Of a stretch of DNA of 64,000 bases, positions 17,235 to 63,999 are shown piece after piece. The stretch comes from a virus. The position numbers and the translations under genes are program-made. The DNA is taken from the IMG/VR virus record IMGVR_UViG_3300008267_013251, positions 1 to 64,000 of that record. One strand, 5' to 3'. The notes beneath the pieces are model-generated. The model made no database searches and was not told the origin of the DNA. It was given only the letters and a program-made list of their open reading frames with translations. The stretch's first letter is position 1; the number at the start of each line of letters is the position of its first letter.

Positions 17235-17506
17235 TATATTCTCCATTCTCCAAAACAAATTGATTCAGAAACCACGGGATTTTTGGAAAAGCAGCCACTT
17301 CTCTGGAAGCGCATTATACCGAAGAAAACTTTTTTACTGCCCCACGATGATACAGCATGTTTGCTCTGTTTAGCTCCTTTATCAAAAAAACTAAAAGCAT
17401 ATGACCTATGAGATAGATCAACTGTTCTTTTGGTTTCTTGCCAACTTACTTTCAAAGGTGGTTTGATATCAGTTGCCAAACCATAAAAACTAAAATCATA
17501 TTCCAT
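17234..17506 (-). CDS. KRTVDLSH-family small protein
   Basis: 90 residues. The N-terminal 35 residues (FSFYGLATDIKPPLKVSW, then KRTVDLSH-x-SYAF) are plainly related to the protein at 60474-60800 on the other strand (FSVYGFTTNKPPV...SW, KRTVDLSH-x-SYVF), while the C-termini diverge and are Cys/Phe/Ser-rich. Two copies in separate tiny-gene clusters imply a functional unit. GGAGGCAATA precedes ATG 17506. I know no named family with this motif. Confidence 0.7.
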   Translation of the reverse strand: MEYDFSFYGLATDIKPPLKVSWQETKRTVDLSHRSYAFSFFDKGAKQSKHAVSSWGSKKVFFGIMRFQRSGCFSKNPVVSESICFGEWRI

Positions 17507-27003: not shown

Positions 27004-27187
27004 CAAACAAAAAACTAAAAGCGCCTCTTTTAAAAAGATTTCCAGATAGGTTCCACAGAAATGAATTGACTACATTTGTGACAAAAAAACTGGAAGGAGA
27101 AATAGTGCTGTACAATTTTGATCCATTTGAATTATTGGCCCAACATCGCACCACACTTATGGAATTCGTTCGATGACATAGTTTCAT
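26963..27187 (-). CDS. Possible tiny-array family protein
   Basis: 74 residues, Ser/Asn/Phe/Trp/Cys-rich (RCWANNSNGSKLYSTI, SSFFVTNVVNSFLWN). The composition and the CW and KLYST elements recall the 63 kb array (YSTL). It overlaps the methyltransferase start by 41 bases and begins 3 bases after the upstream stop. No strong ribosome site is seen, so it could be a non-coding spacer frame. Confidence 0.35.
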   Translation of the reverse strand: MKLCHRTNSISVVRCWANNSNGSKLYSTISPSSFFVTNVVNSFLWNLSGNLFKRGAFSFLFDGMLCSHNWSRKI

Positions 27188-44145: not shown

Positions 44146-44414
44146 TACCCTCAACAGGACTCGAACCTGTAACCTACAGCTTAGCATACCACTACGGTTT
44201 TCACCGCCCCATGTGGGTTCGTGGTCTGGACTGTGTCTTGACCTTCAGCATTATCTGTTCAGGTCCGTGCCGTTCAGTCTCTACACCTTCCCGTTTCCGG
44301 GCTTGGCTCGGCGTTACCAGTTAAGGATTCACCGAATTTGACACGATCCATTATAAGATTTCTCTTATAACGCTCCTTTTGAAGGCTGTTGCTCTTCCAT
44401 TGAGCTATGAGGGC
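44146..44414 (-). tRNA. tRNA-Arg(UCU) interrupted by a group I intron
   Basis: 5' exon 44382-44414: GCCCTCA acceptor arm, TA, D arm GCTC...GAGC, anticodon stem ACAGC, then CTT. 3' exon 44146-44184: CTAA, stem GCTGT, AGGTT, T arm ACAGG-TTCGAGT-CCTGT, TGAGGGT, discriminator A. Joining gives a 72-base tRNA with 7-base loop CTTCTAA and anticodon TCT, i.e. Arg for AGA/AGG. The G1-U72 pair also occurs in T4 tRNA-Arg. No CCA is encoded. Every stem pairs only after intron removal. Confidence 0.9.
44185..44381 (-). ncRNA. Group I self-splicing intron (IC3-like), 197 bases
   Basis: Located after U34 of the anticodon, the same place as in cyanobacterial tRNA-Leu(UAA). Follows U and ends in G, as group I requires. 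Features: GGAGCG guide followed by P2 TTATAAGA-GAAA-TCTTATAA, GAGCCAAGCCC (Q-like), GGGAAGGTGTAGAGACTGAA (R-like) and ACAGTCCAGACC (S-like), in the order of subgroup IC3 tRNA introns. No homing endonuclease is encoded. Confidence 0.88.
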
Positions 44415-44432
44415 CTATCTCTTCTATTCTAG

Positions 44433-46387: not shown

Positions 46388-47575
46388 CTAACCATTTTTT
46401 ACCGCAGCAGTTCTGTTGTATCCAACAGAAACCTGTTTCCAAGTTGTTCCAGCAGCAACTGTTTGAATTGGAGATGAATAAAATTGCAGGGCAGCATTGG
46501 TTCCTATTTGGCCGGTTATGGTGGATGTGCCAAAAATAACATTTCTTCCCCAACACCAAAGACTTCCATCACTTTTTATGGCTCCTGTTGATTGTCCAAA
46601 CCCTCCACAATCAACCTGTTTCCAACTTGTTCCGGCAGATACAGTTTGAACGGGAGATGAGCGGTTAGTAATAGTATTATCCCCTAATGATCCTGTAAGG
46701 TTATACCCCCACATCCAGAGGCTTCCGTCATTCTTGATTGCCCCCGTGTGGTTGCCACCACCCATCGAAACTTGTTTCCAGCTTGTCCCTCCTGTTATTG
46801 TTTGGATCGGAGATGACTTATCAACAATTGTGTTATCTCCTAAACCACCGAAGCTGTTGCCTCCCCAAGTCCAGAGAGTTCCATCCGTCTTAATTGCTGC
46901 CGTTGAAAATCCTCCGCAAGAAACATTTAGCCAATTAGTTCCACCAGCTACTGTTTGGACAGGAGAACTACGATGAGTTCTAGTATTATCTCCAAGCTGC
47001 CCTTGGTTGTTATACCCCCATAGCCAAAGCGTACCGTCTGTTTTTATGCAAGCAGTATGATATCCACCGCAAGATATTTTGTTCCAGTTTGTACCAGCTG
47101 CTACTGTTTGTACACCAGAGCTTCTTTTTGTTACTGTATTATCTCCAAGCTCTCCATCTGCATTATATCCCCACATCCAGAGCGTTCCATCTGTCTTTAT
47201 AGCAGCACTATGGTAGTATCCAGCAGCACATGTTTTCCAAAATGTTCCAGATATAGCTGTAGTCACGGGAGAGGAATAATTAGTTACATTGTTAGTACCT
47301 AGTTGGCCGTGATTGTTATAGCCCCATACCCAGAGTGCATTGTCAGTTTTTATAGACAATGAATGATATGAGCCAAGATGAATTTCTTTCCAGTTTGTGC
47401 CAGCAGACACAGTCTGAACAGGAGAGCTTCTGCTGGTTACGGAGTTGTCCCCCAGTCCTCCTTGATAATTTCTTCCCCAAGACCAAAGAGTGCTTCCTAC
47501 AAACTGGTCGAGAAGCCAAGCGTCAGTAATAAAAACTTTTTTAACATCACCGTCAGGTCTTGAAATAAATGGCAT
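46388..47575 (-). CDS. RCC1-repeat surface protein (second copy)
   Basis: 395 residues. The leader MPFISRPDGDVKKVFITDAWLL is followed by seven ~50-residue RCC1 units (GTLWMWGYN--G-LGDNT---RSSPVQTVAAGTNW). The repeat wording is close to the partial protein at 1-1379, so the two are paralogues with different N-termini. It ends right after the last blade. Probable virion propeller involved in adsorption. AATAAATA lies upstream and AAGGAAA before the ATG. Confidence 0.9.
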   Translation of the reverse strand: MPFISRPDGDVKKVFITDAWLLDQFVGSTLWSWGRNYQGGLGDNSVTSRSSPVQTVSAGTNWKEIHLGSYHSLSIKTDNALWVWGYNNHGQLGTNNVTNYSSPVTTAISGTFWKTCAAGYYHSAAIKTDGTLWMWGYNADGELGDNTVTKRSSGVQTVAAGTNWNKISCGGYHTACIKTDGTLWLWGYNNQGQLGDNTRTHRSSPVQTVAGGTNWLNVSCGGFSTAAIKTDGTLWTWGGNSFGGLGDNTIVDKSSPIQTITGGTSWKQVSMGGGNHTGAIKNDGSLWMWGYNLTGSLGDNTITNRSSPVQTVSAGTSWKQVDCGGFGQSTGAIKSDGSLWCWGRNVIFGTSTITGQIGTNAALQFYSSPIQTVAAGTTWKQVSVGYNRTAAVKNG

Positions 47576-51887: not shown

Positions 51888-53407
51888 TGAATGACATAAC
51901 TTTTGCAAAATTCGTTGATTTATGTGAGCAAGATAGGCTTGATGAAATTCAATTTATTAAGGACATGTGGAAACACGCCAAGCGTGGTTATCAATCTGGC
52001 TACACATACTGGAATCCAACCGAGACTGAAGAAGATAAAGCATTAAGAGCGGACGGTAAAAACCCAACATGGGAAAAATTTAAAAACGCAGTCATGCCAG
52101 CCATAGAAAAAACAAAACAATTCGTCAACAAGGCCCAAGAGGTTACTGGCGTTTCTGCACCTTTAGCTGCTGCTCTGTTGGCAGCTGGTGTGACTGGCGG
52201 GGCGGGAGCCATCCCGATGGCAGCTTTTTTGTACTTTACCAGAAAAATCTTTGTTACCCCTGTCTTGGGTGTAGCTGGAAAAGGCTTTGATAAAGTATTT
52301 GGCACAGATGAGGACAGACGCAAAAAAGAAGCAGAGGCACAAGCAGCAGCACAAGCAGCAAAAGATGCTATTAAGCCCGCAGAGGACATTCCTATAATCC
52401 GAAGAAAAAAAAAGAAAAAGAAAAAAAAATTGGTCACGGCTACAGAATGGGTTTTCTGTTCTGATTACAATAATTACTTGCTCTACAAAGAAATCAAAAC
52501 TCTTGGCTACATCAACAATATTTCTTTCAAAGAATGGATTTCAAATCCAAATTATGAATTACTAAATGAAGGCAAAATTCTAAATTGGATCGGTAGAAAA
52601 ATTGGCCAAGGGGTTGGTTTCGTAAGTGGATTCTTTGATAATATTCAGAATAAGATCGAAGCCGTTGTCGAAGGAAGTCTCCAAGCTTTAGGAAACTTTG
52701 CCAAAAATAATCGTATAGGAATTATGAAGGCAGCTTTCCTCATGGCTCTTGGTGTTGCAATCGGCCACGGAGTAACAAAACTTACTAATCATGTTATTCA
52801 GCAAGTACAAGATTCAGCACACCATGCTGTTACTGGACAAGCCCAATCAACCGAAACGCCTGCAAGTACAACCACAGCACCAACCTCACTTACAGCAAAC
52901 GCCGATCAGGAATTCCTGAGAATGAAGCAAGAAATATTAAGTAATAAAAACTTGTCACCCTATGAAATGAAGCTTCAAATACAAAAGGCATTTATGGACA
53001 CGCACAAGGATGTTGGAATTTATAAAAACTATGATATTTTAAGAGCTAAGGCAGAGAATGAAGCAATCTTATCCAATAACGCAGCAAGCACACCTGCCAA
53101 CATGGGTACTAATCATCTAGATTTGTTGAAACAAGCTGATAAAGAATTTATCAATATGAAACAACAGATACTATCTGATCCCAACTTGTCAGCACACGAA
53201 ACCCATGCAGCCCTCAAACAAGCTTACATAGATACACATAAGGATGTGTATAACAGTCCAGTAAGTAAAAAAATAAATTTTGTGTCAAACCATGCTGATC
53301 GTTTAGCAAATGATGCCGTGCTCAAAAAATTTGGAAGCCTTCCACCAGTAAGTAAAGCAGCAGCGGAACTTGGTCTTATTAGATCAAAACCGTTGCTGCC
53401 AGATTAA
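51887..53407 (+). CDS. Paralogous head-targeted membrane-active virion protein
   Basis: 506 residues. It shares with the upstream gene the leader ITFAKFVDLCEQDRLDE|IQF, the hydrophobic ISAPLA-like helices (VSAPLAAALLAAGVTGGAGAIPM), the TATEWVFCSDYNNYLLYKE block, SFKEWISNPNYELLNE|G and a later membrane helix. A Lys run (KKKKKKKK) sits near 180. C-terminal half has two related helical repeats (EFLRMKQEILSNKNLSPYEM / EFINMKQQILSDPNLSAHET, each followed by DTHKDV). Likely proteolytically processed, injected or head-internal. Role inferred. Confidence 0.7.
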   Translation: MNDITFAKFVDLCEQDRLDEIQFIKDMWKHAKRGYQSGYTYWNPTETEEDKALRADGKNPTWEKFKNAVMPAIEKTKQFVNKAQEVTGVSAPLAAALLAAGVTGGAGAIPMAAFLYFTRKIFVTPVLGVAGKGFDKVFGTDEDRRKKEAEAQAAAQAAKDAIKPAEDIPIIRRKKKKKKKKLVTATEWVFCSDYNNYLLYKEIKTLGYINNISFKEWISNPNYELLNEGKILNWIGRKIGQGVGFVSGFFDNIQNKIEAVVEGSLQALGNFAKNNRIGIMKAAFLMALGVAIGHGVTKLTNHVIQQVQDSAHHAVTGQAQSTETPASTTTAPTSLTANADQEFLRMKQEILSNKNLSPYEMKLQIQKAFMDTHKDVGIYKNYDILRAKAENEAILSNNAASTPANMGTNHLDLLKQADKEFINMKQQILSDPNLSAHETHAALKQAYIDTHKDVYNSPVSKKINFVSNHADRLANDAVLKKFGSLPPVSKAAAELGLIRSKPLLPD

Positions 53408-53409
53408 TT

Positions 53410-54795
53410 TTATCTTAGTTCTTGCCAGCTGATAACGGCTCCAACGCTAGCTGCTCTTGGAGGGTCTTGAGTATCGCAGCTTGTAACAACAACTGAAATT
53501 ACATCTGCATCTGTCCCAGCGTAATTGACGGTTAAGGGAACTTTGACAACCCTCTGGGTTATGCCACCAGTCGCATTAGCGCCCGGACCACCAGCAACCG
53601 CATAACCAGCTGCGATAACGATGCCTCCAGTAATAGCATTTGCAGCTGTATCATAACTCATTCCACTATATGTCGTATTAACATTGTTAAAAGAAGCATT
53701 AGTCAAAGTTCCATTATAAACAATTTCATAGTAAGAAGTATATGTTCCACTTGTAACTTCTACACCAGTAATATCAAATTCCATCCTATTTGTAATGCTA
53801 TTAAATGTGGTTCTGGGTTTAATGCTTAAAACAGGCCTTCTTGTTTGTACAGATGTAAAAGTCGAACCTTTTCCAACTGCAAATGGATAGCCGACTTTAT
53901 CATATCCCCCTTCAGAAACAACAGCACCGCAAATGCATTTCATAGTTGCAGCAGCACCGTTCGCTGTATTTTCTATCTCGTATCTTAGAGGCAGATTGGC
54001 AGTTGTCGTGTAAGCAGCAGTAACAACATTTGCATTATTGACTTCATGGCAATAATAGATTAAGCCGTTGACTACAAAACCGTACCTAACCCTACCAACA
54101 CCAAGCCATTCTAAATCAATTAAAAATATTTGTGCTTTGGTAAAATCTAAATCGATCCCACTCGCACCAGAACCATCCATCTTATCGATGTTCCATGCAG
54201 ATTGATCAACTCCTTGATCGCTTGAATTAGTTCTGATTACAACTTTAACTCCAGTATTTCCTCCAGATGCTGGGATTTGCTCAAAAAACATACCACCAGC
54301 ATCATCGAAATAGCCGATCCTTCTACGAACTCCTGAAGCAGATGCCCCTAATACACCTGTGACTAGTATGAGATGTGACTTTCCGGGCTGATATCTAAAA
54401 TATTGTTTTGTTTGTCTAATTGCTTTATCGTTGAGCGTACCCCCTACCGATAACTGCACAGTTGATTCTAATGCTATATGAGATGACCCACCACCTCCTG
54501 TAGTTACAGTATTATAAACTAATGGCTGTGCATCATATTGGTTCTGGTTCTCAAAAACATATGAAGGATTACTAACTCTAAGCCTGCCGAATGCATCTAT
54601 TGCGGGAGAGTCTCCAAGGGTGATTGCAAGATTATTACCTCCGGTTGTACCGACTGGCAGGGGGTTACTTTCACTCACATCAACAGCAGTATTTTCACCA
54701 CCATACTGAAGTTTGACCTTAAGATGTTTTACATTGCCTATTTCATCAGCAGCTAAAACTTTGTCATGATCTGTGAGACGGACATTATCAGACAT
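53410..54795 (-). CDS. Conserved phage structural protein (FGRLRVS family)
   Basis: 461 residues from ATG 54795 (GAGGT upstream). The order DAFGRLRVSNPSYVFENQNQYD, RQTKQYFRYQPGKSHLI, RRRIGYFDDAGG, FLIDLEWLGVGRVRYGFVVNG, LPLRYEIEN and VSEGGY matches a widespread viral structural protein I recall from large phages and algal viruses. It is beta-rich and probably a neck, tail or decoration protein. Confidence 0.75.
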   Translation of the reverse strand: MSDNVRLTDHDKVLAADEIGNVKHLKVKLQYGGENTAVDVSESNPLPVGTTGGNNLAITLGDSPAIDAFGRLRVSNPSYVFENQNQYDAQPLVYNTVTTGGGGSSHIALESTVQLSVGGTLNDKAIRQTKQYFRYQPGKSHLILVTGVLGASASGVRRRIGYFDDAGGMFFEQIPASGGNTGVKVVIRTNSSDQGVDQSAWNIDKMDGSGASGIDLDFTKAQIFLIDLEWLGVGRVRYGFVVNGLIYYCHEVNNANVVTAAYTTTANLPLRYEIENTANGAAATMKCICGAVVSEGGYDKVGYPFAVGKGSTFTSVQTRRPVLSIKPRTTFNSITNRMEFDITGVEVTSGTYTSYYEIVYNGTLTNASFNNVNTTYSGMSYDTAANAITGGIVIAAGYAVAGGPGANATGGITQRVVKVPLTVNYAGTDADVISVVVTSCDTQDPPRAASVGAVISWQELR

Positions 54796-54833
54796 TGGCA
54801 TACCTCATATTAATTATTGATATATAGTGTCTA

Positions 54834-55124
54834 TTAGTTCTGTATTTTCAATCTATGATACTTCTCTTTAGGGTCTTGTAGAATGTTTATTAAGGAATAC
54901 TCGGAAAGCCCAGTAGCTTCTGAAATACATTTTAAATCAGCTGACGGATCGATTACAAAACCGCCTCTATCTGTTTCCATCCAAAAAACTCGCTCCTTAG
55001 TCTTGAAAATAGGCCCGTAATAAAAAGCTACACTTTTATTGATATTGTGGTTGTCGTATAATTTCCAAGCAGAACCTAAATCAACATCAACTGTAATATC
55101 CCCTCTTTTCAAGGTGCGTGTCAT
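54834..55124 (-). CDS. Unrecognised small protein, 96 residues
   Basis: Start at ATG 55124 (GGAGG upstream). Beta-rich: LKRGDITVDVDLGSAWKLYD, VFWMETDRGGFVIDPSAD, then a helix. No family recognised. Confidence 0.65.
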   Translation of the reverse strand: MTRTLKRGDITVDVDLGSAWKLYDNHNINKSVAFYYGPIFKTKERVFWMETDRGGFVIDPSADLKCISEATGLSEYSLINILQDPKEKYHRLKIQN

Positions 55125-55140
55125 TTGTCCTCCATAAAAA

Positions 55141-55171
55141 AATAAAGCCGAAGTCATCCTTCGGCTTTATT
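55141..55171 (-). terminator. Terminator after 55193 gene
   Basis: AATAAAGCCGAAG pairs perfectly with CTTCGGCTTTATT around a 5-base loop, followed on the minus strand by T7. Confidence 0.85.
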
Positions 55172-55192
55172 GTACAAATAATTGCTTTTCGG

Positions 55193-55438
55193 TCAATCAA
55201 ATATATCACGGAAGAGAGATGCCTTGGGGCAGTCTTCCGGGTTTTTCTTGGCACGGTCCACAGCCCTTTTTACCTCTGAATCAGTAAACAGCAAGTGGAC
55301 CTCCTTTCCATCTTCAAGTTGAATACGAACATGATTATATTTTGCAGCTGCTGCTGGATGCTTCAATTGATTTACAACTGATTGCATGTCAGCAATTCTC
55401 TTAGCCTTGATTGTCGTACCTTTCAATCCCTTCGCCAT
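55193..55438 (-). CDS. Unrecognised small basic protein, 81 residues
   Basis: KGLKGTTIKAKRIADMQSVVNQL then HVRIQLEDGKEVHLLFTDSEVKRAVDRAKKNPED. Basic, mixed alpha/beta. Own terminator. Function unknown. Confidence 0.7.
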   Translation of the reverse strand: MAKGLKGTTIKAKRIADMQSVVNQLKHPAAAAKYNHVRIQLEDGKEVHLLFTDSEVKRAVDRAKKNPEDCPKASLFRDIFD

Positions 55439-55502
55439 TTTGTGCCCCTTTCTTGAATTTTGAGCCTGCTAGAAATAAAATAGTAAATCGTCTGGAGAAT
55501 TA

Positions 55503-56102
55503 ATGGTGACAACATATTTTAGGAATGGAATCATCTCAGGCAAATTCAATCGTGAAAGAAACGATGTTTTTGATGAAAAAGGCAAAAGATTTGCAACACT
55601 TTATTTTTCCAGCCAAGGGGCTAAAGTAGAGTGCAATGATTTAGATGAGTTGGGGAGAAGATTATTTCAGCAACCAGACTTGCGAGTATATTTTTCTGAT
55701 AGAGATATGACTGTATTTGTTGAAGCAGAAATAAAAAGCGATAAACATTGGCACTACATTTATGAAGGAATAGATGTACCAGCTAGAAAATATAAGTATG
55801 CGAAGATAACTAGCGGTAAAGGCTTTTACTTCATGGGGAAAGAAGACTTATCCGAATTCTTATTGATTCCTATGAAATACGCTTCAATGGCCATGGAATC
55901 TTGTGGTGAGGAATACATGGGCCATCGTAGCGTACCAGCAAGTGCTAACTTCGTGATGCCAGAGCATGGTTGTCACAGAGTAAGAAAATTCTGCTGCTCT
56001 GGTATCAACAAAGGTAGTGCAATCGAAGATTTTGTTAGAATTCCCTACGAAAATGTGTTGCACTATGTCAGGGACAACAACAAATTTGTAAGAAAAATCT
56101 AA
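55503..56102 (+). CDS. Unrecognised protein, 199 residues
   Basis: Beta-rich N-terminal half (KRFATLYFSSQGAKVEC; RVYFSDRDMTVFVEAE), then PEHGCHRVRKFCCSG near the end. TGGAGA precedes ATG. The convergent neighbour overlaps by 4 bases. No family recognised. Confidence 0.65.
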   Translation: MVTTYFRNGIISGKFNRERNDVFDEKGKRFATLYFSSQGAKVECNDLDELGRRLFQQPDLRVYFSDRDMTVFVEAEIKSDKHWHYIYEGIDVPARKYKYAKITSGKGFYFMGKEDLSEFLLIPMKYASMAMESCGEEYMGHRSVPASANFVMPEHGCHRVRKFCCSGINKGSAIEDFVRIPYENVLHYVRDNNKFVRKI

Positions 56103-56434
56103 AAATCATTAAGTTTCAAATTCTTCAAAGATTCATCGTCCCAAAAATCTGGAATTCTATCTTCCACTCCGAAAGCAAAATTCATAGCATCCCAATCATT
56201 GACGCTATAGACCAGACATACGCCATAAAATGTTACTCCACTTTTTTTATACTTTCTGATGACAAATTTTGTGTTTTCAACTTGACCAAAAGTTCTTATC
56301 AATTGCTGCTTAAAAGCTTTAACCTCCAGCTTTGCCTTTTCTAGATAGTCACATTTTTTTATGTCAAGAGACATCTCTTTGTAGGGTTTCGAACCAAATT
56401 CCAACTCATCAAAAATTGCGCTGCTTGCACTCAT
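56099..56434 (-). CDS. Unrecognised protein, 111 residues
   Basis: Start ATG 56434 (AGGAGG upstream). Contains KAKLEVKAFKQQLIRTFGQVENTKFVIRKY and WDAMNFAFGVEDRIPDFWDDE. No family recognised. Confidence 0.65.
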   Translation of the reverse strand: MSASSAIFDELEFGSKPYKEMSLDIKKCDYLEKAKLEVKAFKQQLIRTFGQVENTKFVIRKYKKSGVTFYGVCLVYSVNDWDAMNFAFGVEDRIPDFWDDESLKNLKLNDF

Positions 56435-56529
56435 ATTGTTCCTCCTAGTTTTTAATGTTCTCTGAGACAATATACCGGGAAAAAATATTTGCGACTACAG
56501 AGGACTAAATAAAAAATTAGGGGGCAAAA

Positions 56530-57000
56530 ATGATAGAAAAAATTAAAATGTTAATACTTAACTTTTTAAATGCTATAAAAAAATCTATCAGTCCATCTAA
56601 AGAAATAATACCAAATCCAGATAACAAATCAAGCAGCATTTACATCGAGAAATCTCTAAACATATTCAGAAATAAGAATAGTTTAATACCATTTATACAC
56701 AACAGCAGCCTTGAAAAAATTGCTACTGAATATTCTTTTGAGATGGCCAAGTCTAATCGTATCATGTATGATATGAAAGGATTGCAGTTGAGTTATAGAC
56801 TGCATAAAAACAACATTTTTTGCAAGAATATGTACCTAATTCCAGCACATTCTTATCATGAATGTAATACTGAAAACTTAATACGAAACATTCTTTCTGA
56901 TACGATTGGAAGGAATACGCTACTAAGTGATAACTTTTATTATATTGGTGTTGCGGTTTTTAACAATTACTGTACTGTTATTTTAACTAGTAAGTTTTGA
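56530..57000 (+). CDS. CAP/SCP-domain-like protein
   Basis: 156 residues. A hydrophobic N-terminus (MIEKIKMLILNFLNAI) may anchor it. The segment IEKSLNIFRNKNSLIPFIHNSSLEKIATEYSFEMAKS, then TENLIRNILS...NTLLSDNFYYIGVAVF has the CAP-superfamily layout (N-R, L--A---a--M, EN, and the final iGVa). CAP proteins are secreted and often bind sterols, or act as proteases. The two usual His positions are not obvious. Confidence 0.55.
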   Translation: MIEKIKMLILNFLNAIKKSISPSKEIIPNPDNKSSSIYIEKSLNIFRNKNSLIPFIHNSSLEKIATEYSFEMAKSNRIMYDMKGLQLSYRLHKNNIFCKNMYLIPAHSYHECNTENLIRNILSDTIGRNTLLSDNFYYIGVAVFNNYCTVILTSKF

Positions 57001-57017
57001 AAAATGATTGTTTTCTG

Positions 57018-57025
57018 CATAAATA
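57018..57025 (+). promoter_or_regulatory. Late-promoter-like octamer CATAAATA
   Basis: Seven of eight bases match, 44 bases upstream of ATG 57070. Confidence 0.35.
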
Positions 57026-57069
57026 ATGTTGCCTAATGGCATGCATGTCTTTATACAAGGAGATATTTA

Positions 57070-57315
57070 ATGGCTAATTATTTACTAAAATTGACCCCTA
57101 GCCTAGTCAACCTAGGAACAGAGGGCTCACTAGACACAAGCGTCAGCAACGGTGTTTCCGCTCAGCGCACAGGTTATATCGAAGTTGTAAATACTTCTGA
57201 CCTACAACAACGCATGGTTTGGGAACTCAATGACGGCGCAACTTTCAACGATGGTTTCCAAACACTCACCGACATTTCAAATGGTGCAGGTGGTGTATTC
57301 ATCGTAACCCCCTGA
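57070..57315 (+). CDS. Small single-gene-operon protein, possibly structural
   Basis: 81 residues with beta-rich KLTPSLVNLGTEGSLDTSVS, TGYIEVVNTSDLQQRMVWEL and GAGGVFIVTP. AAGGAG precedes the start and a very strong terminator follows, the arrangement of a highly expressed single-gene unit such as a decoration protein. Function unproven. Confidence 0.6.
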   Translation: MANYLLKLTPSLVNLGTEGSLDTSVSNGVSAQRTGYIEVVNTSDLQQRMVWELNDGATFNDGFQTLTDISNGAGGVFIVTP

Positions 57316-57333
57316 TTGCTAAGGGCACAATCT

Positions 57334-57370
57334 AAAAAAGGGGAAGGACTACTGTCCTTCCCCTTTTTTT
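57334..57370. terminator. Strong bidirectional terminator
   Basis: AAAAAAGGGGAAGGAC pairs perfectly with GTCCTTCCCCTTTTTT around a TACT loop. Serves both 57070-57315 and the minus gene at 57372. Confidence 0.9.
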
Positions 57371-57371
57371 A

Positions 57372-57584
57372 TTAATACGACTCAATCTTTTTGCGTATTT
57401 TACTCAAAAGCTTATTTATGAATTTGACATATCTGACATCATCTGATTTTTTTGTGACTTTAGATATTCTGTCACTTAACGCAAAGTTCAACTCTTCGAG
57501 TTCTTGATAATTAAACTTTGAAATTACTTTTCTATTCATGATAACTTTGAAAAGTTTTTCATGACCATTTTTGGAATTATTCAT
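57372..57584 (-). CDS. Unrecognised helical small protein, 70 residues
   Basis: Basic, helical: LFKVIMNRKVISKFNYQELEEL...VKFINKLLSKIRKK. GGAGGCAATAC precedes ATG. Ends at the bidirectional terminator. Confidence 0.65.
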   Translation of the reverse strand: MNNSKNGHEKLFKVIMNRKVISKFNYQELEELNFALSDRISKVTKKSDDVRYVKFINKLLSKIRKKIESY

Positions 57585-57644
57585 GTATTGCCTCCAGTTG
57601 GGAAAGCAATCATAAAAGAAAAATCAATATTTACAACAAAAAAA

Positions 57645-58853
57645 TTAATTTAATTTGTCGTAAATCATATTTTCGTTATCGAAATAATTACGAATTCTGA
57701 ACGGGTTGGTTTCTTTTACTGATTTCTCAACGAATACTTGTTGAATTCCATTATTGTGGAAAAACTGAAAAGCATCAACATAATCATCAGATGTAATATC
57801 AACCTCTGAAAAATAGAGGTGCCTAAACCTGTCTTTTTCCTTCATGTTTTTGATGCCCGGAGACGAATACATGTAAGATTCAGGAGTGGGGTGATATCCC
57901 GGCAATAATGCTGTGATGATGGTTGCAATATTATCTTTGAAGTCCATGGGTGAAGAGAAGCATTTCACATACACATCTCGTTTTTCGGTATTAGGAATAA
58001 CATTGCCATGAATCGACTTCAACTCAGGCTCTTTCTCTACAATATTTTTCACAACTGGTAAAAGTTTGCTAAATACTGGGAAATAAAATTGAATGAATCT
58101 CCGACCTCCAGCATGAAATGCTAGATTGTATTTCAAATTATTAAAGAATTCATAAAGTAAGATGAAACTACAATATGAACTTTTACCCCTATTCGAAAAT
58201 CTTTGAATAATCCGGCTCATGGCATGATGAGTGAAAACCATATCGTACTCTTTACTGTGCCATTTGATTTTATTGGGTATCATATACTGATAGCATGTAC
58301 TACCATCAGACTCTATTTTATTAATCCTTTGAAATACAAAACAAATTTTATTGTCAACAAAGCACAGTCTGAAACCTTGATTTGGCCAATACTTGAAAAG
58401 ACCATCCTTGCCTTTAGAAAAAAGTATATTATCTCCAATAGCAAGTAGCAACTTTTCATGCTGGCTTGCGAAATTGGATGCCCTTTTATTGAATTCAACA
58501 ACTTCAGGCTCCTCACTCATTAAGAATTGAGTGCCCTTTTTTACATCCATTCGGGAAATTTTATGAGCAAATTCCTCTATCCCAGCTGCCATGAAAAAAG
58601 CTGGCTTGAACCCAAACTTGACAATATTCTTCAAGAATTCGTGATATATGTCATCATGTGCATCATGGAATTTGAAGGTCTGAAAGTTGATATCTTTTAC
58701 AGCTTTTTTAACAATATCTACATAGTCTCTATCACAGATATGTTCGTTTACAAATGAAAATTGAGGATATAAACCTCTAACTGATTCAAAGTGCTTTTGT
58801 TTACGAAGCCTTTCTTCTCTTTCTTTCTTTTTTTGAATTTTGTTGCGATTCAT
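57645..58853 (-). CDS. Unrecognised protein, 402 residues
   Basis: A Lys/Arg/Glu-rich coiled-coil-like start (NKIQKKKEREERLRKQKHFES) leads into a mixed domain. YDMVFTHHAMSRIIQRFSNRGK resembles an H-x3-R-x2-RF pattern seen in some toxin-like RNases, but the rest does not help. GGAGG lies before the ATG and a sigma70-like promoter lies upstream. Confidence 0.65.
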   Translation of the reverse strand: MNRNKIQKKKEREERLRKQKHFESVRGLYPQFSFVNEHICDRDYVDIVKKAVKDINFQTFKFHDAHDDIYHEFLKNIVKFGFKPAFFMAAGIEEFAHKISRMDVKKGTQFLMSEEPEVVEFNKRASNFASQHEKLLLAIGDNILFSKGKDGLFKYWPNQGFRLCFVDNKICFVFQRINKIESDGSTCYQYMIPNKIKWHSKEYDMVFTHHAMSRIIQRFSNRGKSSYCSFILLYEFFNNLKYNLAFHAGGRRFIQFYFPVFSKLLPVVKNIVEKEPELKSIHGNVIPNTEKRDVYVKCFSSPMDFKDNIATIITALLPGYHPTPESYMYSSPGIKNMKEKDRFRHLYFSEVDITSDDYVDAFQFFHNNGIQQVFVEKSVKETNPFRIRNYFDNENMIYDKLN

Positions 58854-58893
58854 GGTGATTCCTCCTTGTACAATCCTCCATTTACATCCTTAT

Positions 58894-58922
58894 CTTATAC
58901 GGGACACAATAAAAAACGACAA
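58894..58922 (-). promoter_or_regulatory. Sigma70-like promoter for 57645-58853
   Basis: TTGTCG (58917-58922) and TATAAG (58894-58899), 17 bases apart, on the minus strand. Confidence 0.45.
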
Positions 58923-58930
58923 CCATAAAT

Positions 58931-58958
58931 TTGCTACAAATGGTTTTACCGTTAAAAT
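58931..58958 (+). promoter_or_regulatory. Sigma70-like promoter for the 58977 operon
   Basis: TTGCTA (58931-58936) and TAAAAT (58953-58958), 16 bases apart, just upstream of GAGG and ATG 58977. It may drive the plus-strand tiny-gene series to 62 kb. Confidence 0.4.
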
Positions 58959-58976
58959 GTAACAAAGAGGAAAAAT

Positions 58977-59504
58977 ATGATAAATATTAAGCTTACCAAG
59001 GATATGGTTCTTCGTGCCTACAAGGATTCCATATCTTTGGGAGAATGCAAAAACTCTATCCTAAGAGGTAAAGGCAACTTTACAGGCTTTGTTGGAGAAG
59101 AGGCAGTAAAATCGTATCTCAAAATCGAATCTCAAAGAAATAACACATACAACTATGACATAACATACAATAGTATATCTTTAGATGTAAAAGCCAAGAA
59201 AACATCTGTCATTCCACAGTCATACCATGAAGCAAGTATTGCCAATTTCAATACTAAACAAAATTGTAAATATTATGTTTTTACAAGAGTACTTTGGCCA
59301 CAAGATATGTTGCTTCCTATTTCTGTTTATATTATGGGATACTACGACAAAAAAGAATATATGAAAGAAGCGAGATTCTTGAAAAAGGGACAAGTTGATG
59401 GCAGCAATAATTTCGTAGTAAAAGCAGATTGCTGGAATATGCTTTATAGTGATCTCCTCGATTTTTCTCAATTTAAAGAAAAATATCAACCTTTACTCAT
59501 TTAA
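58977..59504 (+). CDS. PD-(D/E)XK-type nuclease-like protein
   Basis: 175 residues. FTGFVGEEAVKSYL then YDITYNSISLDVKAKKTS gives the E...D...D-x-K pattern of a restriction-endonuclease-like fold. The later QNCKYYVFTRVLW, GYYDKKEY and KKGQVDG blocks fit a phage nuclease family of this type. Target unknown. Confidence 0.72.
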   Translation: MINIKLTKDMVLRAYKDSISLGECKNSILRGKGNFTGFVGEEAVKSYLKIESQRNNTYNYDITYNSISLDVKAKKTSVIPQSYHEASIANFNTKQNCKYYVFTRVLWPQDMLLPISVYIMGYYDKKEYMKEARFLKKGQVDGSNNFVVKADCWNMLYSDLLDFSQFKEKYQPLLI

Positions 59505-59508
59505 AATT

Positions 59509-59715
59509 ATGAACCCAGAACTTTTACTATCTGACAAGTTTGTTGAATTTTCCCAAAAAATTTCACAACTTCATGAGGCTAAGAAAAAAGCCAGCGCAGA
59601 ACTCAAAAAACTTTTGGAGGATCACAAACTCCAGATGAAAAAAATTGATGACGAAGCCCTTGCTCTTTCTGCTGCCTTTGAAGCTTGGCAAAAAGAAAAT
59701 TCAAAACCCAAATAA
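59509..59715 (+). CDS. Small coiled-coil phage protein
   Basis: 68 residues from ATG 59509, 4 bases after the nuclease stop. KISQLHEAKKKASAELKKLLEDHKLQMKKIDDEALALSAAFEAWQ is one long helix and resembles small conserved phage proteins with a terminal FE-W. No sharper role. Confidence 0.7.
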   Translation: MNPELLLSDKFVEFSQKISQLHEAKKKASAELKKLLEDHKLQMKKIDDEALALSAAFEAWQKENSKPK

Positions 59716-59792
59716 AGTCATGTAATTATTTGACTTTCGTAAACACATTTCCTAATGTGTCTTGAAATATTTTGGGCAGCAGAGATTGGGTG

Positions 59793-60059
59793 ATGGTAGT
59801 TAAATGTTTAGAATGCAACTCATACTCTGTATTTCATGCATGGATTGGTGTAAAAAGTAGAGTGACCAAAGGCTGCTGCTGTCCAAATCAAGTCTGGATT
59901 GACAGCAAAGAAAATATCCGAGCAGAAAACTTCGACAAAATTGAAATTTGGCATGGCGTTGAACAGAAGTTTATTCCATACCAGAGGTTCATGAGCCTAT
60001 GTTCTTCCCAGAAAGCAAATCATTCAGATTTGAAAGAAGATATTCTGGCACACGGTTAG
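59793..60059 (+). CDS. Zinc-ribbon-like small protein
   Basis: 88 residues from ATG 59793. VKCLECNSYSVF and KGCCCPNQVWID give a CxxC plus CCC cluster, like a zinc ribbon. The following NFDKIEIWHGVEQKF is a beta segment. The 3' end overlaps the first tiny-array gene by 61 bases. The ribosome site is weak. Confidence 0.6.
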   Translation: MVVKCLECNSYSVFHAWIGVKSRVTKGCCCPNQVWIDSKENIRAENFDKIEIWHGVEQKFIPYQRFMSLCSSQKANHSDLKEDILAHG

Positions 60060-60181
60060 CAAGATATAAATACTCATATGGTTTTAAATTCCATAGTAGT
60101 TTTTCAATAGCTTTTTTTGAAAGAACTGGCAGCGTCCTATTCTCACAGTTTAATTCTCGTTCTTTTGCTTTTGGAAATTGA
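59999..60181 (+). CDS. Tiny-array protein A2 (60 residues)
   Basis: RRYSGTRLARYKYSYGFKFHSSF then SIAFFERTGSVLF and SRSFAFGN: Arg/Ser/Phe/Tyr-rich, with alternating short strands as in the other array members. Its stop is 2 bases from the next ATG. It overlaps the zinc-ribbon frame, and the ribosome site (AGAGG) is distant, so coding is less sure than for later members. Confidence 0.45.
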   Translation: MFFPESKSFRFERRYSGTRLARYKYSYGFKFHSSFSIAFFERTGSVLFSQFNSRSFAFGN

Positions 60182-60183
60182 AA

Positions 60184-60381
60184 ATGTTGTTTAAAGTTGG
60201 CCAACGAAGTGATGTTTGCCAATTCCAAAATAATTGGAATCGGTCTGATTGTTGGACAGAAAGAGATTTTATATTAGAATCAGAGTGTTTTTCTAACAAA
60301 TACTTTTTCAGCAGACATTTTACTTGGGGAGATGAGTTCAATTTAAATAGCAGCTGGGGACATTGGTCTGGCAACATTTAG
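60184..60381 (+). CDS. Tiny-array protein A3 (65 residues)
   Basis: MLFKVGQRSDVCQFQNNW, then NRSDCWTERDF and ESECFSNKYFFSRHF (CW and CF-x4-F elements), ending SSWGHWSGNI. The stop TAG is fused to the next ribosome site (TAGGAG), as also occurs at 63466. Opposite-strand frames here lack such signals. Confidence 0.6.
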   Translation: MLFKVGQRSDVCQFQNNWNRSDCWTERDFILESECFSNKYFFSRHFTWGDEFNLNSSWGHWSGNI

Positions 60382-60390
60382 GAGATCACC

Positions 60391-60474
60391 ATGATTAATA
60401 CTCTTTCTTTTCTCGTCGCTGTATCTGTACTAGTGGGTATGATATATATAGTTGCAGAGAAAGTGAGAGAGTGA
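60391..60474 (+). CDS. Tiny membrane protein in the array (27 residues)
   Basis: MINTLSFLVAVSVLVGMIYI and then VAEKVRE: one transmembrane helix. AGGAG lies 7 bases upstream. The stop overlaps the next ATG (TGATG). Likely expressed; role unknown. Confidence 0.55.
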   Translation: MINTLSFLVAVSVLVGMIYIVAEKVRE

Positions 60475-60800
60475 TGTCAGAAATTCCATTTTCAGTATAT
60501 GGTTTTACAACTAACAAGCCTCCAGTATTAAATACAAGTTGGAATGAACAAAAAAGAACTGTTGATCTAAGTCACAAAAGTTATGTTTTTATTACTTCTC
60601 TGTATTCATCACCATGGAGACAAAGAGAAAGGTTTCCAAACGCTGATCGATCCACTATACTTTACTATTGGTCAAAGTATGGTGATAAAAGAGTCAAAAG
60701 AAGTTTGAACTGGACAACCGAACCGAGATCATGGTGGCCTTCAGGCATAACTGAATCAAAGGTTTTCAACGAAAGTCATGTTAAAGGTTTTAAATTTTAA
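60474..60800 (+). CDS. KRTVDLSH-family small protein (108 residues)
   Basis: The N-terminal 35 residues pair with the protein at 17234-17506 (FS-YG--T--PP----SW-E-KRTVDLSH-SY-F). The C-terminal part is Trp/Arg/Ser-rich (SSPWRQRERF, YYWSKYGDKR, SLNWTTEPRSWW). The start is TGATG-coupled to the membrane peptide, suggesting they act together. No known family. Confidence 0.7.
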   Translation: MSEIPFSVYGFTTNKPPVLNTSWNEQKRTVDLSHKSYVFITSLYSSPWRQRERFPNADRSTILYYWSKYGDKRVKRSLNWTTEPRSWWPSGITESKVFNESHVKGFKF

Positions 60801-60963
60801 TTGTGATGTTTTTTCAGCAGGTAACGCTTGCTCATTCAAAGACATAAATAATAGTGAACTTTATAGAGCACTTAGCTTTGACGGCAGAACTCAAAGCCAA
60901 TTATTCAGTCATCCGTTTATTTATGACAGTCATTGCTTCAATATGTTGTGGAGAAGCCCGTGA
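60778..60963 (+). CDS. Tiny-array protein A6 (61 residues)
   Basis: LNFNCDVFSAGNACSFKDINN, LYRALSFDGRTQ, DSHCFNMLW. It overlaps the previous gene by 23 bases and shares its stop with the next start (GTGA). It has a weak ribosome site, so translation is probably by re-initiation. Confidence 0.5.
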   Translation: MLKVLNFNCDVFSAGNACSFKDINNSELYRALSFDGRTQSQLFSHPFIYDSHCFNMLWRSP

Positions 60964-61190
60964 TTTTCAATTACACATGCAGACACACTTATTCTGTATT
61001 CGCCCGAAATCAAAGATTCGGTGTGACATTCAGACCTAATGAATATTGTTGTTTGGCTTTTGGAAGTAGATTCAATAGAGTTAGTAGAAATACAGGGCAA
61101 GCTTGGAGTGAAGTGTTTGGTGCTTGCGAATCTACAGTATGGAAAGAATTTTCATTTGAAGAACAGCACAGTTGGAGCGATTGGGTATGA
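60960..61190 (+). CDS. Tiny-array protein A7 (76 residues)
   Basis: GTG start overlapping the preceding stop, with GGAGA upstream. Alternating strands: RHTYSVFARNQRFGVTFRP, EYCCLAFGSRFNRVSRN, WSEVFGACESTVW, ending SWSDWV. Its 3' end GGAGCGATTGGGTATGA serves as ribosome site and start of the next gene. Confidence 0.6.
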   Translation: MIFNYTCRHTYSVFARNQRFGVTFRPNEYCCLAFGSRFNRVSRNTGQAWSEVFGACESTVWKEFSFEEQHSWSDWV

Positions 61191-61372
61191 GGTTGTTACA
61201 TGCAGAATCATGCTGCTGGATATTGCATCAAAAAGCAAGTTCCAATATAGCTTGTTTCTTCCATCATTTTATGCCGTATTCATATCTTTGGAAAAGTTTT
61301 TCAGCCAGAAATACTAATCTACGACTTCAACAATCTAAAAATTTTGGATTTTATTCCAGCGATTGGGTTTGA
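61187..61372 (+). CDS. Tiny-array protein A8 (61 residues)
   Basis: ATGA-coupled to the previous gene. MRLLHAESCCWILHQKASS, NIACFFHHFMPYSYLWKSF, ending SSDWV, the same end as A7. The two 3' ends share AGCGATTGGGT, as if a junction had been duplicated. Confidence 0.6.
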   Translation: MRLLHAESCCWILHQKASSNIACFFHHFMPYSYLWKSFSARNTNLRLQQSKNFGFYSSDWV

Positions 61373-61424
61373 TTCAGTAATTTTTTATAGTATTATGCCT
61401 AAGTGTTTTTTAAAAGGAGTTTCT

Positions 61425-61616
61425 ATGCCGTATCCAACGAAATGTGACCGTTGTCGTCAATCTATGTCTGACTGCTGTATGAGCAAATTTAATTCAGACT
61501 ATATTTGTGGCACCTGCCAAACAAAAGAACAATCTCATCCCCAATATGCAATTGCTACGGAAGTTGCAAAAAGAATGAGCAACTTTTCTGGAATTGGCAA
61601 GCCTTCCGACCTTTAA
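61425..61616 (+). CDS. Small phage zinc-finger protein
   Basis: 63 residues. CDRCRQSMSDCCMSKFNSDYICGTC, then HPQYAIATEVAKRM and NFSGIGKPSDL match a common small phage family with two CxxC pairs (C-x2-C ... IC-x2-C) and a GIG-P-DL end. AGGAG precedes ATG. Unrelated to the tiny-array family, though in the same operon. Confidence 0.8.
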   Translation: MPYPTKCDRCRQSMSDCCMSKFNSDYICGTCQTKEQSHPQYAIATEVAKRMSNFSGIGKPSDL

Positions 61617-61658
61617 TTCGAATTGGATTCATAGTTTTTTTCGCATTTGGAGTAGAAC

Positions 61659-61817
61659 ATGGACAAGTCATTAGAAGAAAAAATTATGGAAGACATTATA
61701 AAACACCTGCATTCAAACCGGCATCTATCTAATTTAGGGTATGATTCTATGACAACAGAAATGAAAAATATATTTAATAGTATTGCATGCAATCCTGTGA
61801 GTGACCGTAATGTCTAG
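61659..61817 (+). CDS. Unrecognised small helical protein, 52 residues
   Basis: MDKSLEEKIMEDIIKHLHSNRHLSNLGYDS; TTGGAG lies upstream of ATG. It overlaps the next start by 8 bases. Too short for most gene finders. Confidence 0.55.
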   Translation: MDKSLEEKIMEDIIKHLHSNRHLSNLGYDSMTTEMKNIFNSIACNPVSDRNV

Positions 61818-61926
61818 TTATTGGGATGGATTTTGGACAGGTGTAGCTGTGACATTTGTTATGTCACAGCTTTATTTCTTGTGTTGTGACATTAGTTGTG
61901 GAAAAATTAAAAGAAGGGAGAAGTAA
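61810..61926 (+). CDS. Tiny membrane protein, 38 residues
   Basis: MSSYWDGFWTGVAVTFVMSQ, then LYFLCCDISCGKIKRREK: a membrane helix with a Cys cluster and basic end. TAATG couples it to the next gene. Confidence 0.55.
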   Translation: MSSYWDGFWTGVAVTFVMSQLYFLCCDISCGKIKRREK

Positions 61927-62090
61927 TGCCATATAAAAGTAGAATCAGAAGAGAAGAAGCAAGGTTAGCATGGCGAATTAAGAATAAAGAAAAACTTCGT
62001 GAACAAAGAAAAATATGGGAAGCAAATAATCAAGACAAAATTAGACAGTATAGAGAGAAAAGGAAACATAAAAATGCTCTCCAGAAATAA
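61926..62090 (+). CDS. Small basic helical protein, 54 residues
   Basis: RIRREEARLAWRIKNKEKLREQRKIWEANN, then QDKIRQYREKRKHKN: Arg/Lys-rich helix, like small nucleic-acid-binding phage proteins with YREKNRE-type repeats. TAATG coupling. Confidence 0.6.
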   Translation: MPYKSRIRREEARLAWRIKNKEKLREQRKIWEANNQDKIRQYREKRKHKNALQK

Positions 62091-62127
62091 CCACGATAAG
62101 TCTACAAATTTTTAGATCATAAAAAAA

Positions 62128-62772
62128 TTATTTTTTTTGTGGATATTTCAACTTTTTTATAAACCAAAAAGCTGCTTTAGATTCAAGCCTTAGTCTGTTC
62201 TCATTTGCAAATCTGTCTACGGCACTTTTTACACCTGCACACCAATCATAATCATGACCAAAAACAATTCCTTTTTCTACCATATCAAATGAGTACTTCA
62301 AGTCTGCGTAAACATCTTCCTCTTCATGAGATGCATCTATGTAAACAAGCTCTGGCTTTATCGCATGGTGTTTCAATATTTTTAAGCCTGTAATTGATGT
62401 ATTTGTTATTGGAATAATCGTATCTTGTAAATTATTGTGAACAACATTACTCAAGAACTGATAATATATTTGAGGATAACCATTTTTAAGATGGAGATTT
62501 CTTTCTGGAGTATCCTTGTGTGTTGTCCAAAATTCTGTCGCTCCTAACCATGTGTCAATGGCATATATCTTGGTATGTTTCAATCCTAGTTTTTTTAAAA
62601 TTTTGCCCATGTTAATAGTTGATTGGCCTTTCCAAGAACCTATTTCTACTACAACTGAAGGCAAAGACATAGATATCATTTCTTCAAAAATAGAATCATT
62701 TCCTCCCCAGCCATCTGTATCTTCAGGCCACAACTCTAAATTTTCATATATTTTTTGGTTTATTTCATTCAT
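62128..62772 (-). CDS. SAM-dependent methyltransferase (Methyltransf_24-like)
   Basis: 214 residues. VVVEIGSWKGQSTINMG (motif I), IYAIDTWLGATEF, ELVYIDASHEEEDVYADLKYSFDMV and GIVFGHDY follow the Methyltransf_24/cephalosporin-hydroxylase-like layout. These act on sugars or natural products. It interrupts the plus-strand tiny-gene series. Confidence 0.85.
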   Translation of the reverse strand: MNEINQKIYENLELWPEDTDGWGGNDSIFEEMISMSLPSVVVEIGSWKGQSTINMGKILKKLGLKHTKIYAIDTWLGATEFWTTHKDTPERNLHLKNGYPQIYYQFLSNVVHNNLQDTIIPITNTSITGLKILKHHAIKPELVYIDASHEEEDVYADLKYSFDMVEKGIVFGHDYDWCAGVKSAVDRFANENRLRLESKAAFWFIKKLKYPQKK

Positions 62773-62813
62773 ATTATTCCTTACGACATACCAACTACTA
62801 TGGCAAAATTTTA

Positions 62814-62841
62814 TTGTATTTTCGAACTTTGATTATATAAT
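62814..62841 (+). promoter_or_regulatory. Sigma70-like promoter for the 62.9-64 kb array
   Basis: TTGTAT (62814-62819) and consensus TATAAT (62836-62841), 16 bases apart, 36 bases before ATG 62878. Confidence 0.5.
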
Positions 62842-62877
62842 GAAAATTTATCATAAAAAATAAAAAAAGAAGGCAAG

Positions 62878-63072
62878 ATGCTTTTCATCAACGGGCATGA
62901 CTGCGCCATCTTCAGCCAAATATATTCTGGCAGTCACAATTGGAGAAATAATTGGTGTCTATGTGACACTAGAGCTATGACAGCCAGAGCAGCATTGTCA
63001 TTTTCCCATTGTTGGTCTAAAAATATAACTTGCTCCCAAAAGAATGATTCTTTTTTGTGGGGGATAGACTAA
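62878..63072 (+). CDS. Tiny-array protein B1 (64 residues)
   Basis: MLFINGHDCAIFSQIYSGSH, NWRNNWCLCDTRA, SFSHCWSKNITCSQ. AAGAAGG precedes ATG and a sigma70-like promoter lies upstream. The stop overlaps the next ATG (TAATG). It has a CW pair but the CF core is replaced by HCW. Confidence 0.6.
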   Translation: MLFINGHDCAIFSQIYSGSHNWRNNWCLCDTRAMTARAALSFSHCWSKNITCSQKNDSFLWGID

Positions 63073-63260
63073 TGTTCTATAAGTTCGGCAGTTCCAGATC
63101 ATTTCATTGGCAAATCTGGTCGCATCATGGCACCAGAGGCGTAATATGGGGAGATAATTTTGTGGGCAAAAGGGATCGGTATTCCATATTGTTGAGTAAG
63201 ACCTCCCAATTAACAAGCAGATGGTCGTACTACAGTAAGTGCTGGGGGTGGAGAGATTAG
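63072..63260 (+). CDS. Tiny-array protein B2 (62 residues)
   Basis: MFYKFGSSRSFHWQIWSHHG, GVIWGDNFVGKRDRYSILL, ending KCWGWRD. Trp/Ser/Arg/Gly-rich with short strands. TAATG start; GGGGG upstream. The next ATG is one base after its stop. Confidence 0.6.
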   Translation: MFYKFGSSRSFHWQIWSHHGTRGVIWGDNFVGKRDRYSILLSKTSQLTSRWSYYSKCWGWRD

Positions 63261-63261
63261 C

Positions 63262-63468
63262 ATGATATTCACTAGAAACTGTAATGGCATGAATACATTA
63301 CATCTACGAAGATTTTCTTATCTGTTTGATTCTTTTGGAACTTCAGTTTCTTTTCATGGAAAATATGGGTCAGCACTTTGTTTTGAAGGAAATTCATTTA
63401 TGTCTAATGCATTTCACGATGGACAGATGACATGCGGAAGACCATTTGCTTTAAGGACACAAATTTAG
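63262..63468 (+). CDS. Tiny-array protein B3 (68 residues)
   Basis: FSYLFDSFGTSVSFHGKYGS, then ALCFEGNSFMSNAFHDGQ (CF-x4-F core), ending RPFALRTQI. GGAGA precedes ATG. The stop TAG is fused to the next AGGAG ribosome site, as in A3. Confidence 0.62.
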   Translation: MIFTRNCNGMNTLHLRRFSYLFDSFGTSVSFHGKYGSALCFEGNSFMSNAFHDGQMTCGRPFALRTQI

Positions 63469-63479
63469 GAGACTTTCCA

Positions 63480-63620
63480 ATGATGTTCTGCCGTATGAGA
63501 AGCAGCAAATGTTGGTCAGAAGGCAATTATCAATTCATTTTTTATGATGTTGTAAGCAGTCGTTTAAACGGTGGATATTATAGTTATATGTTCAGCAGAG
63601 AGCGAGTGAGGAGCCTTTGA
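63480..63620 (+). CDS. Tiny-array protein B4 (46 residues)
   Basis: MMFCRMRSSKCWSEGNYQF, then YYSYMFSRERVRSL. Shortest member; CW motif only. Its tail encodes GAGGAG, the ribosome site of the next gene, and its stop overlaps that gene's TTG start. Confidence 0.55.
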   Translation: MMFCRMRSSKCWSEGNYQFIFYDVVSSRLNGGYYSYMFSRERVRSL

Positions 63621-63823
63621 TTATCCGAATTAACACTATTTCAAACAATGGATGCTGGAGTGGCGATAACAGCATTAGCCATTGCTTTCCACGCTTCCAA
63701 TATTGCACTCTGAGGAATACAGTAGGCAGAAGCATGGGTTTTTGGAGTGTGATATTTGAAAGGCAATGCAGATCGAAATTGCGCTATGGATTTTGGTCGA
63801 GTTGCTGGGGGAGCGGGATATGA
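63617..63823 (+). CDS. Tiny-array protein B5 (68 residues)
   Basis: TTG start overlapping the previous TGA, with GAGGAG upstream. NGCWSGDNSISHCFPRFQY and then CTLRN fit CW-x7-(H/Y)CF-x4-Y-(C/S)TL, identical in spacing to B6. The C-terminal half is Trp/Arg/Ser-rich. Clear paralogue of B6. Confidence 0.6.
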   Translation: MIIRINTISNNGCWSGDNSISHCFPRFQYCTLRNTVGRSMGFWSVIFERQCRSKLRYGFWSSCWGSGI

Positions 63824-63999
63824 TCCATCTGATTAACTCCTACAAAGAATGTTGGTGCTGGAATGATGCCAGCGATACAAGCTATTGCTTTATTGGCACA
63901 AAATATAGTACATTGTCAAAGCGCAGGGCATTTGGTGTCAAGGCAATATGGAGTTATGGGTATTCACAAGGCTATTCACAAAACTATTGGATTTTTTGA
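63820..63999 (+). CDS. Tiny-array protein B6 (59 residues)
   Basis: ATGA-coupled; GGAG 6 bases upstream. MIHLINSYKE, CWNDASDTSYCFIGTKYSTL and AFGVKAIW, then a Tyr/Gln/Ser repeat (SYGYSQGYSQNYW). CW-x7-YCF-x4-YSTL matches B5. The array may continue beyond the window. Confidence 0.62.
   Translation: MIHLINSYKECWCWNDASDTSYCFIGTKYSTLSKRRAFGVKAIWSYGYSQGYSQNYWIF

Follow-up and report, generated by a model that had tools for sequence, protein, structure and literature searches.

Tiny coupled genes at the end of the window

The window analyzed here, 64,000 nt in length, makes up the first 64 kb of a viral contig of 145,015 bp (G000), which like all sequences considered below is metagenomic. At its end lie six short open reading frames (B1–B6, 62878–63999), all of which we found where an earlier note on this DNA had placed them:

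62878–63072, +, B1, 64 aa; opens the array and ends in a TAATG overlap with B2
63072–63260, +, B2, 62 aa; C-terminal ..SKCWGWRD, TAATG overlap with B1
63262–63468, +, B3, 68 aa; contains LCFEGNSF; frame open, with a GGAG site, and separated from B2 by 1 nt
63480–63620, +, B4, 46 aa; its ribosome site, TAGGAG, is fused with the stop of B3
63617–63823, +, B5, 68 aa; TTG start within a TTGA overlap
63820–63999, +, B6, 59 aa; ATGA overlap with B5

The array is not over at position 63999. B1–B6 begin a series of about a dozen genes that extends to approximately 65616, and further arrays and single copies are present elsewhere in G000:

64046–64213, 64210–64401, 64401–64571 and 64568–64765, array genes 3' of B6
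64762–65334, 190-aa gene without any domain, within the array
65413–65616, array gene
65616–65801, small hydrophobic protein at the end of the array
66215–66244, clear terminator-like hairpin between the first and the second run
66265–67547, second run of tiny genes, 3' of the hairpin
near 71907–72757 and 74980–75720, shorter arrays
59999–61372, +, upstream sister array, with the following genes
59999–60181, +, 60 aa
60184–60381, +, 65 aa; TTG at 60178 is a possible start; clear family member (iterated profile E = 7.2e-14, G006-only profile E = 0.0012; see below)
60391–60474, +, hydrophobic peptide of 27 aa
60474–60800, +, coupled gene, 108 aa; second type of array protein, conserved KRTVDLSHKSYVF
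60778–60963, +, 61 aa
60960–61190, +, 76 aa; GTG start within GTGA
61187–61372, +, 61 aa; ATGA overlap
16091–16315, −, single copy, 74 aa; orthologue in contig G006 44% identical
17234–17506, −, single copy, 90 aa; paralogue of 60474–60800
26963–27187, −, single copy, 74 aa; family member (iterated profile E = 3e-8, G006-only profile E = 1.6e-4)

The product of 60474–60800 represents a second conserved type of protein within the array, with a 60% identical orthologue in G006. It shares its first 37 residues (59% identity) with the product of 17234–17506, while the remainder is different; the pair is apparently a case of modular end exchange.

From B1 to 65616, neighboring genes are mostly spaced at −4 (ATGA, GTGA or TTGA), −1 (TAATG or TGATG) or +1 nt. 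The junctions that depart from this rule are B3/B4 (+11), B6/64046 (+46) and 65334/65413 (+78), the last of which is bridged by a duplicated gene end. The longest coupled chain (62861–65620) comprises 10 genes, against a maximum of 4 in 1000 dinucleotide-preserving shuffles, and its part inside the window comprises 6, where as many shuffles gave no more than 3. The array with its stop/start overlaps is not a chance product.

In the bacteria and archaea tested, overlaps of the ATGA and TGATG type couple translation (PMC6728339, PMC10666635), and the array resembles these termination-reinitiation pairs in its −4 and −1 nt geometry. Known overlapping pairs usually encode unrelated subunits, whereas here about ten divergent small genes stand in a row, and the ribosome site is encoded by a conserved C-terminal motif. 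The last codons of a gene, for example TGC TGG GGG AAT AGG ATA TGA, read C-W-G-N-R-I-stop and also provide the following gene with a G-rich ribosome site and its ATG. Translation would run on from one gene to the next through termination-reinitiation at the overlapping stop and start codons, with the last codons (..TGG GGN .. ATA TGA) doubling as ribosome site for the following gene, and through this relay the set would be made together. On sequence grounds, such translational coupling is well supported. Since the last codons are read both as protein and as ribosome site, the ribosome site, and not the protein, may account for part of the W-G conservation at the C-terminus. This suggests a design rule, by which a conserved C-terminal motif (..CW-G-x-x-I) is the next ribosome site and the genes are thereby modular.

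The TTGTAT/TATAAT promoter that the earlier note placed upstream of B1 did not hold up: TTGTAT has 3 of the 6 bases of the −35 consensus, and the region contains 21 promoter-like sites where 20.6 are expected. A single promoter for the array was rejected, as such sites are not above chance.

The small-protein family and its turnover

Searches covering IMG/VR, GTDB and named phages identified relatives of the array genes in four more contigs, G002 (181 kb), G003 (144 kb), G006 (27 kb) and G007 (173 kb); short as it is, G006 has about 15 coupled ORFs of tiny size. The lineage with the family comprises the 145-kb source contig and four or more related contigs; judging by some of the metagenome accessions, these phages are presumably of lake origin. 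Aligned, the family members follow the pattern M-I-x-(K/R)-x-x-S-x-S-x-x-x-(C/L)-(W/F)-S ... S-x-x-W ... S-(R/K/x)-x-W-(G/S)-x-(N)-(I/L), with the short signature MIxKxxSxSxxxCW ... SRxWGxNI.

An iterated profile retrieved 37 ORFs at E ≤ 0.01, and one reversed ORF at E = 0.003. To exclude effects of composition and self-training, we trained a further profile on G006 only, with reversed and shuffled ORFs as decoys. It matched 12 ORFs at E < 0.01 in G000, G002 and G003 (7 of the 12 in G000), and none of the reversed or shuffled decoys at this threshold. As the G006-only profile matches other phages and not decoys, the array ORFs appear to constitute one divergent family, in support of the tandem paralogues suspected from the window itself. 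These decoys also ruled out a low-complexity artefact behind the profile matches. Comparison across the contigs thus shows that a long array begins in the region, made up of a single divergent family of predicted 45–80 aa proteins, in a lineage of large phages.

Among the six frames of the window, membership appears clear for B5 (iterated profile E = 2.9e-12; G006-only profile E = 0.09) and borderline for B1, B2, B4 and B6 (family profile E = 0.021 for B6), while B3 would belong only through its likeness to B2. A CF-x4-(Y/F) core had been proposed as common to all six. The similarity stands for B5/B6 (p = 0.0005) and, more weakly, for B2/B5 (p = 0.0015), B2/B3 (p = 0.004) and B4/B5 (p = 0.0045), but neither B1 against the other five frames nor most other pairs are significant on their own. 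B1 does, however, share the S-x-x-W-x-x-N-I stretch.

The ORFs of two arrays (L030, 9482–10654; L050, 6001–6711) have MILKxNxxSNNxCFGFNxPKSxCWS in common, followed by in-frame hexanucleotide repeats that encode (SW/SR/SM)n, or (GL)n in an alternative frame. The tandem-repeat regions of Borgs are reported to create disordered protein segments (PMC9879509), and they resemble the (SW/SR/SM)n ORFs of G003: in-frame short tandem repeats, a huge element and a low-complexity protein. This likeness applies to the members in G003 and G007 only, as the array of the window is without such repeats.

Relative to the large ORFs of the same contig, the array proteins are enriched in W (3.0-fold), R (2.1-fold), C (2.1-fold), S (2.1-fold) and F (1.9-fold) and depleted in K (0.4-fold) and E (0.5-fold), with D and P also low; their net charge is mostly +1 to +7. 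AlphaFold yielded no confident fold for the two members modeled (pLDDT 47 and 48, from 28 and 10 sequences), which with such shallow alignments is no proof of disorder, and no helix or strand periodicity was found in the array proteins.

The impression that the products fit no known family was borne out. The family profile has no meaningful match in Pfam, NCBIfam, PHROGs or PDB (best matches scattered at E 0.002–0.1, with one or two members each), and no match was obtained with PADLOC models, which cover defence and not anti-defence proteins. Named phages, searched at the DNA and protein level, and GTDB genomes gave no match to the array, and a piecewise scan of the 595-kb phage LR756511, the nearest named record by DnaE (41% identity), revealed no family member, also with the G006-only profile. 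No earlier description of such arrays was found in the literature, and the family is previously unrecorded in the libraries searched. Phage annotation routinely misses small genes; here a whole family, covering several kb, is absent from every library searched.

A strain contig from the same phage population (L010) carries a variant allele of B1–B2. Between the two alleles, synonymous and non-synonymous changes number 21.5 and 10.5 in B1 (dN/dS 0.058) and 18.5 and 23.5 in B2 (dN/dS 0.18), compared to about 0.7–1.2 (0.69–1.17) for the other two forward frames of the B1–B2 block. Orthologues in other phages gave a dN/dS of 0.07–0.26 where dS was unsaturated, with no stops in any; for B3, no orthologue was found. 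The earlier note had named a dN/dS of about 1, or stops in relatives, as evidence against its proposal, and the opposite was seen (0.06–0.26, no stops). With the junction geometry, these values support coupled, divergent tandem small protein genes, and by this pattern of substitution the array frames are real protein genes under purifying selection. It is barely credible that the frames are not genes and that the DNA or RNA itself is conserved, as recombination or regulatory sequence. An 81-bp direct repeat lies inside the array, and the frame test on the hexanucleotide-repeat heads of G003 did not discriminate between reading frames, so that coding of those heads follows from homology only. 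However, the low dN/dS recurs in independent pairs with other frames near 1, the amino-acid profile works from phage to phage, and a search for RNA families found none at the array.

B1 is a slow evolver, as its orthologue in G003 (43156–43344) is 81% identical, against a median identity of 53% for the large proteins common to G003 and G000. The description of the set as fast-evolving is therefore wrong for B1 and unsupported as a general statement, although B2 and other members are more divergent.

Over 52934–63347, L010 is 98.8% identical to G000, but it contains a divergent block (about 62817–63233, +). Within the block DNA identity is about 80%, both flanks are near-identical, and 3' of it L010 returns to identity until the contig end. 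This shows B1–B2 as a swapped allele between near-identical flanks, and sequence exchange does occur. Another strain contig, L012, lacks 336 bp of the window (61473–61808) and stops at 62816, the very point at which the allele of L010 begins to diverge; the assembly breaks at the variable array.

Duplication is evident 3' of the 190-aa gene, where an 81-bp copy of the end of gene 64568 is found (89% identical). The two copies (64685–64765 and 65336–65416, or 4685–4765 and 5336–5416 of L002) flank the 190-aa gene, and because the second again ends in a stop/start junction, the next gene stays attached. It looks as if the 190-aa gene entered at a stop/start junction and the coupling signal was duplicated in the process. 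In G003, tandem units are almost identical. Comparison thus shows a repertoire that turns over by cassette exchange and duplication, with each gene under purifying selection.

Possible roles of the array proteins

Our preferred reading, which we hold tentatively, is that the products are soluble accessory effectors that bind macromolecules and are made as a co-translated set renewed by cassette exchange. Soluble, basic and rich in aromatic residues and serine, they would bind host enzymes, nucleic acid or phage structures, each paralogue with a partner of its own, and would most likely act as counter-defence or host-takeover factors. Host-interaction factors would fit the absence of a recognized domain and the accessory-gene setting. 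The anti-defence islands of phages (e.g., anti-CRISPR) group together small accessory genes that lack known domains; the array resembles them in this respect, but appears to be mostly one family.

The T4 internal proteins IPI and IPI* are small, are diverse between related phages and have a short conserved end, and IPI* inhibits a host restriction enzyme (PMC3012670). The array proteins are likewise small, highly diverse phage proteins with a short conserved end, but have no sequence match to the T4 proteins, occur in far more copies and are coupled by stop/start overlaps. A T4-type capsid-targeting N-terminus was not seen by eye on the alignment, where the array N-terminus reads MI-x-(K/R)-xx-S-x-S. 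By analogy, the array proteins would most likely work much as the varied internal proteins of T4 do, though they do not belong to that family.

Several findings speak against effectors. B1 is unlike a typical arms-race gene in its slow evolution, the predicted structures are of low confidence (pLDDT 47–48), and no PADLOC model matched. In addition, beta-propeller (RCC1, DUF5122) and possible virion genes are located near arrays in several contigs, a neighborhood that fits a virion role about as well as an effector role. Both a place in the virion and membership in a multi-subunit assembly are serious alternatives to the effector reading.

As virion proteins, the products would be small components or decorations (on the tail or capsid surface, or packaged internally), varied to match receptors or glycans. 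An RCC1 gene (73000–74319) lies between arrays of G000, a DUF5122 gene adjoins the array of G002 and an RCC1 orthologue is present in G006; the Trp/Tyr/Arg/Asn/Ser-rich make-up would suit sugar binding, and the strain-level allele swap would agree with such variation. We nevertheless regard this role as rather unlikely, given that no virion family is matched, that the T4-type N-terminus was not seen by eye, and that single copies also occur far from beta-propeller and repeat-protein genes.

Unlikely, though to be taken seriously, is that the products are subunits of one heteromeric assembly or condensate, for which coupling would ensure stoichiometric co-translational assembly of chains that are unfolded alone. 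Short overlaps are enriched among genes for heteromeric complexes (PMC10666635), and the Arg/aromatic/Ser-rich sequences and the (SW/SR/SM)n repeats of G003 resemble low-complexity, self-associating proteins. Single chains receive low AlphaFold confidence and have no helix or strand periodicity, but the shallow alignment alone may explain that confidence, and gene content that varies between phages, with single copies, is odd for obligate subunits. Very improbable is an array of divergent precursors of ribosomally made peptides, later modified or cleaved: the tandem small ORFs are Cys/Ser/Trp-rich and near a methyltransferase gene, but both ends are conserved without an acidic leader, no recognizable modification enzyme is coupled to the array and no NCBIfam precursor model matched.

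A fuller form of the effector reading, possible but doubtful, is a host-interaction kit in which up to a dozen divergent proteins would be translated together from one message, C-terminal motifs would encode the next ribosome site, and cassettes could be swapped, duplicated or inserted without breaking the relay. Should the products act on the host, every phage of this kind would carry a large set of small effectors, with alleles that differ within one population.

Other features of the contig

RCC1-like and DUF5122 beta-propeller proteins are encoded at 3–1379, 6375–8435 and 46388–47575 of the window and at 13000–14319 of L002 (two of the four were checked by profile), and relatives adjoin tiny-gene arrays in G002 and G006. 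A Group I intron of about 196 nt (Rfam RF00028, 44208–44392) is located in a tRNA anticodon loop (44146–44416, minus strand). The ARAGORN call of a tRNA-Ser(gct) at 44146–44218 looks like an artefact; depending on the splice site, the joined exons give tRNA-Arg(tct) or tRNA-Leu(caa). Ten N bases at 69584–69593 mark a scaffold gap in a glycosyltransferase gene, where strain contig L007 has 28 bases. By eye, we identified an IF-3-like protein (L005; 120613–121158 of G000, minus strand) and, elsewhere in G000, SpoVR- and PrkA-like proteins, a deformylase and pieces of a DnaE-like polymerase in separate ORFs.
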